DNA from: an uncultured Kiloniellales bacterium | GTDB taxonomy: Bacteria; Pseudomonadota; Alphaproteobacteria; Kiloniellales; JAKSDN01 | Assembly (NCBI GenBank): GCA_947258885.1 | Contig: CAMYKD010000059.1 | Span: 1-40,935 of the forward strand | Length of the DNA stretch: 40,935 nucleotides | Direction: 5' to 3' | Shown: piece by piece, positions 18,672 through 21,537 of the stretch | How positions within the stretch are numbered: the first letter of the stretch is position 1 | Layout: each line of letters opens with the position of its first letter | Made by a program: the position numbers and the translations under genes | Notes under the pieces: model-generated | The model's input: the letters and a program-made list of their open reading frames with translations, nothing else | The model's database searches: none | Told to the model about the DNA's origin: nothing

Positions 18672-18822
18672 GTATAAGATGTGGGGACGATCGGCACGGC
18701 GACAATGAGCGCCGGGGTGTGCGCGCCCTCACGATTCCGTGGCGGGCCATTGTGGAGCCGCTTGCCCAACGGCCGCTCGCACCCGGGTGATGTCGAAACG
18801 CCAAGGTCATGAGCCGTCGCGA

Positions 18823-18928
18823 TCCTTCGAGACGGCCCTTCGGGTCGCCTCGGAGGATGAGGAGTCGTTCCTTTGATGAACGTCTTCCTCCTGGTGAGGA
18901 GGCCGCCGCAGGCGGCCGTCTCGAACCA
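18823..18928. repeat. Long imperfect palindrome, dispersed-repeat type
   Basis: Outer arms TTCGAGACGGCC (18826-18837) and GGCCGTCTCGAA (18914-18925) are perfect complements. Inner arms around CCTCGGAGGATGAGGA and TCCTCCTGGTGAGG also pair, so about 100 bases can fold into one hairpin. Palindromes with this TTCGAGACGG and AGGATGAGG vocabulary are common dispersed elements in alphaproteobacterial genomes. It fills most of the 276-base gap between pdxJ and the hypothetical gene. Confidence 0.75.
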
Positions 18929-18947
18929 TGGCGGCCGTACCGAGCCG

Positions 18948-19712
18948 TCAGAAGGCCGCGGCGGTGGTGAGCGCGGCGGGGGCCAGGGCTTCGAGGTACT
19001 TGGCGACCGCGGTCTCGAAGCCCCAGACGAGGGCGTCGGCGGTGACCGCGTGGCCGATCGAGGTCTCGGCGATCCAGGGCGCCGCTTCGATCAGCCGGGG
19101 CAGGTTGTCGAGGTTCAGGTCGTGGCCGGCGTTGAGGCCGAGGCCCGCGGCGCGCACGGCCCGGGCGGTCGCGACCAGCTTGGCGAACTCGGCCTCCCCC
19201 GCGGGCGAGCCGAAGGTCATGCCGTAGGGCCCGGTGTAGAGCTCGACCCGGTCCGCGCCCGTCGCCTTGGCGGGCGCCGCCACGGCCGGGTCCGTGTCGA
19301 CGAAGAGCGAGACCCTTATGCCCTGCGCCTTCAGCCCGCCGACCACCTCCGTAAGGAACGCGGCGTTGGCCGGGATGTCCCAGCCGTGGTCCGAGGTGTG
19401 GGCCTCGGGCGCGTCGGGCACCAGGGTCGCCTGGTCCGGGCGCACCTCGTGGACGAGGTCCAGCCAGTCCGGGCTCGGATAGCCCTCGATGTTGTACTCG
19501 ACCGCGCCGCCGTACTCCTCGCGCAGCAGGGCCGCGAGCGCGCGCACGTCGCTCTTCCGAATGTGCCGCTCGTCGGGGCGGGGATGCACGGTGATGCCCT
19601 GGGCGCCGCCGCGGATCGCCAGGCGCGCGGCCTCGAGCACGGAGGGGTAGCCGATGTCGCGCTGGTTGCGCAGCAGGGCGACCTTGTTGAGGTTGACGCT
19701 GAGCTTTGTCAT
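18948..19712 (-). CDS. pdxJ: Pyridoxine 5'-phosphate synthase PdxJ
   Basis: 254 residues. It condenses 1-deoxyxylulose 5-phosphate with 3-amino-2-oxopropyl phosphate to make pyridoxine 5'-phosphate in the DXP-dependent vitamin B6 pathway. It belongs to the variant subgroup starting LSVNLNKVALLRNQR. Catalytic landmarks are ITVHPRPDERHI (His), VEYNIEG (Glu) and LNAGHDLNLDN (His), and the phosphate-binding end has ETSIGHAV. The cytosolic TIM barrel has normal length. It is divergent from a MocR-type regulator gene 86 bases away, and an ATTGTT-N5-AACAAT operator lies 4-20 bases upstream of its ATG. PLP-responsive control is therefore likely (inference). Confidence 0.95.
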   Translation of the reverse strand: MTKLSVNLNKVALLRNQRDIGYPSVLEAARLAIRGGAQGITVHPRPDERHIRKSDVRALAALLREEYGGAVEYNIEGYPSPDWLDLVHEVRPDQATLVPDAPEAHTSDHGWDIPANAAFLTEVVGGLKAQGIRVSLFVDTDPAVAAPAKATGADRVELYTGPYGMTFGSPAGEAEFAKLVATARAVRAAGLGLNAGHDLNLDNLPRLIEAAPWIAETSIGHAVTADALVWGFETAVAKYLEALAPAALTTAAAF

Positions 19713-19715
19713 GAT

Positions 19716-19732
19716 ATTGTTACCAAAACAAT
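19716..19732. promoter_or_regulatory. Operator copy 1 at the pdxJ start
   Basis: Inverted repeat ATTGTT-ACCAA-AACAAT immediately upstream of the pdxJ start codon, covering its ribosome-binding region. It matches the copy at 19793-19809 in both arms and in two flanking spacer bases. Likely binding site of the adjacent MocR-like regulator. Confidence 0.65.
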
Positions 19733-19792
19733 TTGAGTCTGTGTTCCCTGTATGATACTAATGTCACCGTAACGCCCTGAGTCAACTGAATT

Positions 19793-19809
19793 ATTGTTAT
19801 GGAAACAAT
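19793..19809. promoter_or_regulatory. Operator copy 2 centred on the MocR start codon
   Basis: Inverted repeat ATTGTT-ATGGA-AACAAT, with the regulator's ATG in the spacer. No Shine-Dalgarno sequence precedes the ATG, so the message may be leaderless or the operator may double as the initiation region. A TATGAT -10-like box lies at 19751-19756. Confidence 0.65.
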
Positions 19810-21152
19810 CTGGCAGCCGGACCTGACGGAACGAAGCGGCCCGCTCTACCGCGCCATCGCGGAGCGCCTGGCCGAGGACATCCGCGAGCGCCGGCTCGAG
19901 GCCGGCCAGCGCCTGCCGACCATGCGCATTCTGGCCGAACGCCTCGAGGTCACGGTCGGCACGGTCTACCGCGCCTACGCGCTGGCCGAGACCCAGGGCC
20001 TGGTGGTCCGCCAGATGGGCCGCGGCACCTTCGTGCGCGGCCTGGCCGTGGCGCCGGCGGCCGGGGGCGCGGCGGACAGCACGGCAGAGGGCACAGCGGA
20101 CGGCACGGTCGACCTCAGCCGCAACGAGCCGGTCGAGATCCCGCTGGGCGCGACCCTGCGGCGCACCCTGGCCGAGATGGGCCGCGAGAGCGACCTGGAA
20201 GGCCTGCTCGACTACGGCTTCAGCCAGGGCCAGCCGCGCCACCGCGAGGTGCTGGCGCGCTGGATCCGCCGGCGCGGCTTCGCCGCCGACCCGGAGCGCA
20301 TGATCGTGACCAGCGGCGCCCAGCAGGCGCTGACCATCGCGCTGGGGGCGCTGACCCGGGCCGGCGACACCCTGATGGTCGAGGCGCTGACCTATCCCGG
20401 CATCAAGAACCTGGCGCGGCTCTTCGGGCTCAAGCTGCGGCCGCTTGCCCTCGACCGCGACGGCCTCGATCCCGGGGACCTCCGCGCGGCCTGCCGCGAC
20501 GAGGGCGCCCGCGTCCTCTACTGCATGCCCAACGTGCACAACCCGACGACCGCGACCCTGAGCGAGGCGCGGCGCCGCGAGGTCGCCGAGATCGCCGAGC
20601 GCCACGGCGTCCTGGGCCATCGCCGAGATCCGCCCGGAGCAGACCGTCTATATAAGCAGCCTGTCCAAGACCGTGGCGCCGGGCCTGCGCGTCGGCTCGA
20701 TCACGGCGCCGGCGCGGCTCTACCCGGATCTGGTCGCCGTGACCCAGACGACCAGCTGGATGGCGCCGCCGCTGATGGCCGAGCTCGCCTGCCGCTGGAT
20801 CGAGGACGGCACGGCCGAGGCCCTGGAGCGCCAGCGCGAAGCGGTCACCCGCCGGCTGCACGGCGTCGCCGAGACCGCGCTCGAGGGCGCCGCTTACCGG
20901 CGCGAGCCGCACAACGCCCACCTCTGGCTGCCGCTCGAAGCCCCCTGGTCCGGCGCCGAGTTCGCGGCCAAGGCCGCCGGCCATCGCATCCTGGTGACCC
21001 CCGCCGAGCACTTCGCGATCGATCCCAGCCGCGCCCCCGCGGCCGTCCGCCTCTGCCTGAGCGCGCTCGACGAGGAGCTCTTGTCCGCCGCGCTCGAGAC
21101 CCTGGTCGCGCTGGCCCGCGGCGGCCCCGGCCCGGCCGAGTTCCGCATGTAG
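19799..21152 (+). pseudogene. MocR/PdxR-like GntR-aminotransferase regulator, frameshifted
   Basis: Fusion of a GntR winged helix (residues 1-80; SGPLYRAIAERLAEDI, AGQRLPTMRILAERL, VTVGTVYRAYALAE) with a type I aminotransferase domain, the MocR family of PLP-sensing regulators. The first frame runs to about 20615 (YCMPNVHNPTTATLS present), and the sense then continues in another frame from about 20616 (AIAEIRPEQTVYISSLSKT) to the stop at 21152. The PLP lysine (codon 20667-20669) is kept. The segment between them, which normally has the EDDVYG-type PLP-binding Asp, is missing, so a deletion of several tens of bases that is not a multiple of three is likely, rather than a single-base error. Divergent from pdxJ with two shared operators, it was probably the regulator of pyridoxal-phosphate synthesis. 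A sequencing or assembly fault remains possible. Confidence 0.85.
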
Positions 21153-21315
21153 CCGGCCGCGGGCGGTTTGGAGCAAACGAGCCCATGCACAGTAAAAGAT
21201 CGTTTGTTTTCAAGGGGTTATGGGGTGTCCGGAAGGCAGCGCCGACGCGTAAGCCTTTGAAACAAAAGAATTTTACCACGGAGGCGCGGAGAGCGTAGAG
21301 AACCGAGAAGAGGGC

Positions 21316-21346
21316 TTGGTTTGCGCGTAGAGCGCGCGAAAACCAA
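21316..21346. repeat. Hairpin inside the repeat spacer
   Basis: TTGGTTTGCGCG pairs with CGCGCGAAAACCAA across TAGAG, with two extra bases on the right arm. No T run follows. It sits inside the larger inverted repeat. Confidence 0.55.
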
Positions 21347-21349
21347 AGA

Positions 21350-21369
21350 GGGAAACAGGGACTGGCTCG
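21350..21369 (+). repeat. Unit of a repeat shared with 33710-33820
   Basis: GGGAAACAGGGACTGGCTCG differs at only one position from the first 19 bases of the palindrome arm at 33710-33728 (A for C after GGGAAAC), then diverges. The same core GACTGGCTCG recurs at 33811-33820. See the entry at 33695-33820. Confidence 0.65.
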
Positions 21370-21537
21370 TTTTCGCTCCCGTCCGCGCGCAAGAATTCAG
21401 GTTGTTCCTCTGTGTCTCTGCGCCTTCTCTGTGGTGACCCTTCCCTTTATCCGAAAGCGACGCGGTTCCGGTTTGTTCTTGATAAACGCCTCGGGAAGTG
21501 CTATTGTTCCTATAATAGGGAAATCAGGGAGGCAACC

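Follow-up and report, generated by a model that had tools for sequence, protein, structure and literature searches.

Two conserved candidate operators between pdxJ and a divergent EhuR/EnuR-like MocR gene in Kiloniella and related Alphaproteobacteria

The stretch of DNA analysed (the window, 40,935 nucleotides of a contig from an uncultured Kiloniellales bacterium) carries the pyridoxine 5'-phosphate synthase gene pdxJ and, divergently oriented, a gene for a MocR-family regulator, with two 17-bp palindromes placed between them. The features of the locus are as follows.

18948-19712, minus strand: pdxJ, pyridoxine 5'-phosphate synthase of the Bacteroidetes-like type (NF003626); Pfam PdxJ match, 2.3e-80
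19716-19732, strand not applicable: operator P (pdxJ side), ATTGTT-ACCAA-AACAAT, ATTGTTACCAAAACAAT; exact match, conserved in 15 of 15 aligned divergons
19758-19763, minus strand: weak candidate -10 box of pdxJ, CATTAG; 16 bp from the -35 box, as read from the alignment
19780-19785, minus strand: putative -35 box of pdxJ, TTGACT; 7 bp from operator M, TTGAC invariant and always at N7 in 15 of 15 divergons
19793-19809, strand not applicable: operator M (mocR side), ATTGTT-ATGGA-AACAAT, ATTGTTATGGAAACAAT; exact match, conserved, containing the mocR ATG (19799-19801)
19799-21152, plus strand: mocR, an EhuR/EnuR-like MocR gene disrupted near 20611-20620; the intact orthologue P0001 is matched over residues 1-266 in one frame and 281-458 in another

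Both 17-mers were found, with no mismatches, at the positions given in the original prediction, and the first and last bases of the spacer are common to the two, as it had noted. Its distance of 4 bases between operator P and the pdxJ start is correct as an offset, three bases (19713-19715) intervening, and the regulator's own ATG does lie inside operator M. A chance origin of the pair was ruled out by three observations: only 0.15 matches with up to two mismatches were expected in a shuffled window, the two sites are the only exact occurrences of ATTGTT-N5-AACAAT in the 4.9 Mb genome, and they are conserved in relatives. A reversed control pattern had no exact occurrence in the whole genome. 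A wider regulon within the same genome was also rejected, as a third exact site is absent and near-matches, at 23 places against 14 for the reversed control, barely exceed the expectation for short patterns. Additional exact sites in Kiloniella lie either beside a different MocR gene, which faces a LysE-like gene (L019 and L024), or at seemingly sporadic, coding positions. At the former loci, around position 1500, this other, distant MocR faces a LysE-like transporter gene, and two close ATTGT..ACAAT-type sites are seen.

The product of pdxJ passed the cut-offs of both TIGR00559 (205.2 bits, cut-off 192.75) and NF003626 (331.7 bits, cut-off 222), and the solved structure closest to it in sequence is 6w6a (1.7e-58). 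Among control genomes, NF003626 matched in Bacteroides only, and the mocR-linked pdxJ shares about 35% identity with the form of the gene that is usual in the order, the canonical pdxJ. The Bacteroidetes-like form is the sole type in the window genome and in Kiloniella, while both types occur in four genomes of the same order (G027, G048, G053 and G058). As no pdxS was found in the window genome, which has one pdxA-like gene scoring slightly below the pdxA cut-off, this pdxJ, the only one found there, is probably the route to PNP. The linked PdxJ proteins were not recovered as one clade; they fall in at least two places among type-2 PdxJ with weak support, and a single joint transfer of pdxJ and mocR therefore cannot be claimed. 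Downstream of pdxJ, at 18818-18933, the window holds an imperfect inverted repeat whose arms, of 20 nt each, are separated by 76 nt.

Membership of the MocR subfamily is evident from the GntR winged helix-turn-helix (PF00392, 2.8e-16) and aminotransferase-like (PF00155) domains matched on the parts of the window gene, both of which are present in the full-length orthologue P0001 together with the PLP-pocket motifs EDDVY and SLSKT in their usual forms. As the two domains lie on opposite sides of a frameshift, the regulator gene in the window is broken, with a deletion that removes some 14 codons, among them those of the PLP-pocket motif EDDVY, and shifts the frame near 20614. The orthologue is intact in congener G002 and, as far as the contig end, in congener G001. 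Comparison with G002 gave dN/dS values of 0.21 before the break and 0.10 after it; both halves are thus still under purifying selection, so that the break either arose recently or reflects faulty assembly. Short parts of the intergenic segment at 21270-21440 are repeated at about 14 other places in the genome with 76-97% identity and belong to a dispersed repeat family.

The regulator had been predicted to be of the PdxR type, which was not borne out by curated profiles, since four intact orthologues scored 210-219 bits against the PdxR equivalog NF052282 (cut-off 320 bits). The same four proteins reached 404-432 bits with the EhuR model NF052286, also below its cut-off (480 bits). On these scores the regulator is placed as a MocR of the EhuR/EnuR-like branch that the cut-offs would assign to neither PdxR nor EhuR. 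An ectoine uptake or catabolism neighbourhood was not found beside it, the adjoining divergent gene being pdxJ, and the pdxJ-linked MocR proteins formed a single clade in a quick tree (support 100).

The original prediction would have been abandoned had relatives lacked the motif between pdxJ and mocR; it was found in every relative with a pdxJ-mocR divergon. The pair recurs at a spacing of 77 bp in congeners G001 and G002, at 76 bp, with one site imperfect, in G004 of the same family, and again at 77 bp in eight genomes that belong to a different family within the order. When about 85,000 named genomes were scanned with a pattern not aimed at pdxJ (one perfect and one 5-5 palindrome), 33 stretches matched, 13 of which lie between pdxJ and a divergent mocR. 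These come from Kiloniella laminariae (two assemblies), K. litopenaei, K. majae, K. spongiae and Kiloniella EL199, from MAGs assigned to Kiloniella or to Kiloniellales/Rhodospirillales, and from three MAGs of less closely related Alphaproteobacteria (L068, L076 and L089); the remaining matches came from varied genomes, with neither pdxJ nor mocR matched nearby. Across 15 aligned divergons the spacing was 75-77 bp in every case, and invariance was seen at 22 of 24 arm positions and 5 of 5 positions of TTGAC but at only 1 of the 55 remaining positions that separate the sites, a result that held with one member per lineage (seven lineages; Fisher p 3e-16). Simple shared ancestry of the intergenic DNA was ruled out by this preservation of the arms alongside a single invariant position among the other 55. 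No site was present at 30 canonical pdxJ loci, nor at 25 type-2 pdxJ loci lacking a mocR neighbour (7 at the order and 18 at the class level), indicating that the sites accompany the regulator and not pdxJ alone. The comparison thus supports the two sites, nearly unchanged among related marine bacteria, as conserved operators of the pdxJ-mocR divergon, to which the adjoining MocR would bind.

An orthodox -10/-35 consensus scan returned no promoter for pdxJ. The invariant TTGAC and the candidate -10 stretch together suggest a promoter, deduced from conservation, with transcription probably starting near 19751, which would place operator M at roughly -58 to -42 and operator P at roughly +20 to +36. 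Depending on lineage, the start of the pdxJ-side site precedes the pdxJ ATG by 20, 25, 28-29, 36-37 or 71 bp, and in Kiloniella an SD-like GAGG lies between the site and that ATG. It had been proposed that initiation is blocked through both start codons, but only the mocR-side site is fixed to its start codon. As the spacing of the two sites stays at 75-77 bp and the distance to the ATG varies, the pdxJ-side site appears to be positioned by the promoter and the partner site, making a block of pdxJ initiation by operator P unlikely.

Alphaproteobacterial relatives of the regulator face other genes (EamA/DMT-like, PhzF-like and aminotransferase genes, as read from translated open reading frames), and the window genome itself has one EhuR/EnuR-like paralogue, on contig C11, adjoining an EamA-type transporter gene. 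Among relatives whose site is recognisable (L094-L121 and L162-L188), nearly all carry the element GTCAA-N7-ATTGTCACC-ATG-ACAA at the mocR start, in the same register with a conserved tryptophan codon. The GTCAA-N7-site spacing of the pdxJ divergons is therefore shared with nearly all paralogues that have a site, and on the opposite strand the element reads as operator-N7-TTGAC, the -35 box of the facing gene. The site over the regulator's ATG is thus an inheritance of the subfamily and not peculiar to pdxJ. Several relatives have an additional TTGACA some 28 bp upstream of the site, together with a -10-like stretch that overlaps the site's first bases, and no SD fits at the mocR start; this supports a near-leaderless mocR message in those genomes, which would begin at or next to the ATG. 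No mocR promoter was identifiable in the pdxJ-linked clade. The message suggested earlier is plausible for mocR, in leaderless or near-leaderless form, and for pdxJ it is conjectural.

Second sites in the paralogous divergons lie at distances of 22, 32-34, 51-54, 74 and 94-97 bp, frequently overlapping the region where the facing gene starts. These distances follow a 10.5-bp rhythm (R 0.75; p 1e-4 for unique distances, an optimistic value because the sequences are related), from which the pdxJ divergons depart by about 1.5 bp, leaving their sites on roughly the same DNA face. Such phasing supports a putative loop in which proteins at the two sites touch.

The pdxJ-linked clade also differs from its relatives at operator positions 6 and 12, which are T/A (G/A at the mocR side in the three distant MAGs) where relatives mostly have C/G. 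Its recognition helix reads TVGTV-Y/L-RAY, or NMGTVYRAY in the distant MAGs, relatives mostly having T or S in place of the Y/L residue, and LPPM, LPTM or LPTV replaces their LPTH. As the linked MocR proteins form one clade, this covariation counts as a single event. The joint difference is what a change of specificity would look like, and such a change would separate the pdxJ circuit from the paralogue.

The reading that we favour, and hold to be somewhat more probable than its negation, is that MocR represses its own gene and activates pdxJ from operator M, with operator P as a second contact and PLP ending the activation. The MocR encoded beside pdxJ would bind both palindromes. As operator M covers the mocR start, bound MocR would repress the mocR gene itself, transcription of which probably begins at the ATG or beside it; lying flush against the TTGAC of a promoter with a weak -10 box, it would also presumably activate pdxJ. 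Operator P, in the early transcribed part of pdxJ, may provide the second contact, 75-77 bp away on roughly the same DNA face, through a putative loop. By analogy with PdxR, high PLP would then switch off activation and match PNP synthesis to need, making PLP the presumed signal. According to the 2016 regulon study (PMC5320631), divergently encoded MocR proteins usually activate their target and repress themselves, apo-PdxR does likewise, and PLP acts against this. With the regulator broken in the assembly, the circuit in the window genome would be either newly lost or misassembled.

Several points count against this activation model, among them the lack of a consensus-scan call for the promoter and the broken regulator of the window genome. 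Sites located downstream of a transcription start more often serve repression. The closest relative to have been characterised, EnuR, is itself a repressor, whose inducers react with PLP (PMC8739950), and EhuR is the nearest family model. The main rival, argued by analogy with EnuR and its repression of ectoine genes, is pure looping repression, in which MocR at M and P, flanking the putative pdxJ promoter at helically phased distances of the kind seen in the subfamily, would keep both genes off until released by PLP or by a PLP adduct-forming amino compound. However, the fixed N7 to TTGAC and the weak -10 box resemble activation, and induction by PLP of an enzyme that makes PLP would make little sense, so that another signal would be needed; looping repression is accordingly considered possible but rather unlikely. 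The closeness of both window sites to start codons is what spoke for a PdxR-type regulator blocking initiation at both genes, an explanation that we regard as highly improbable given the missed PdxR cut-off, the distance of the pdxJ-side site from the ATG, 20-71 bp in different lineages, and the GAGG that intervenes in Kiloniella.

It was also conceivable that the sites serve another MocR of the genome, such as the contig C11 paralogue beside the EamA-type gene, and that the local mocR is dispensable. Such a paralogue exists, its site follows the same plan, and the local gene is broken in the window genome. However, the site pair and the local mocR always occur together, the paralogue sites (ATTGTC..GACAA) differ at positions 6 and 12, the recognition helices differ, and the local gene is under strong purifying selection, so that we give this explanation very little credence. 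Beyond the activation model, a broader evolutionary account is put forward tentatively, at somewhat less than an even chance: a MocR of the EnuR-like branch may have changed its DNA specificity (operator positions 6 and 12 and the helix) and taken over a Bacteroidetes-type pdxJ, which in Kiloniella and its relatives stands in for the housekeeping copy otherwise usual, and DXP-dependent B6 synthesis would there be feedback-controlled through a phased two-operator loop.

PLP-responsive control of transcription has been described mainly for pdxST and salvage genes. With conserved operators at pdxJ, control of the E. coli-type B6 pathway can be put to the test, and their conservation in culturable Kiloniella strains makes a direct test easy. 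Because the site-N7-TTGAC arrangement at the regulator's start codon is fixed, it also provides a general means of predicting the operators of a large group of uncharacterised MocR proteins.

MocR control of PLP synthesis and ATTGT-type EutR/EnuR operators were already known. In the text that could be searched, of the 2016 regulon study (PMC5320631) and of later papers, pdxJ is not named as a MocR target, although the supplementary tables of the former may contain it; within those sources, pdxJ as a target was not found described before. The PdxW and PdxQ groups of that study (Suvorova and Rodionov 2016, PMC5320631) are likewise groups of MocR proteins whose regulons are small and centred on PLP metabolism, and PdxQ faces EamA/DMT-like or PhzF-like genes, as do some relatives here, whereas the targets listed in its text are pdxO, pdxO2, pdxH and transporters, not pdxJ. 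With EnuR, EhuR and EutR, the best family model, the regulator shares the operator arms; the EutR/EnuR operator, ATTGT-N6-ACAAT, varies between species (PMC8739950), and its N6 spacer contrasts with the N7 of all pdxJ-linked sites (ATTGT-N7-ACAAT). Unlike EnuR and EhuR, the regulator scores below the EhuR cut-off and neighbours pdxJ instead of ectoine genes, while EnuR represses a catabolic cluster.

PdxR is the MocR regulator of pdxST in C. glutamicum, L. monocytogenes, B. clausii and streptococci; the genes opposite it serve PLP synthesis or salvage and are in most cases pdxST or pdxK. As here, it is encoded divergently from a PLP synthesis gene with its sites in the common intergenic region; it belongs, however, to another MocR branch, whereas the target here would be pdxJ of the DXP-dependent pathway, with 17-bp palindromes 75-77 bp apart in a genome without pdxS. 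GabR of B. subtilis is, like the regulator as proposed here, a divergently encoded MocR that represses itself and activates its target, but it binds direct repeats and responds to GABA.
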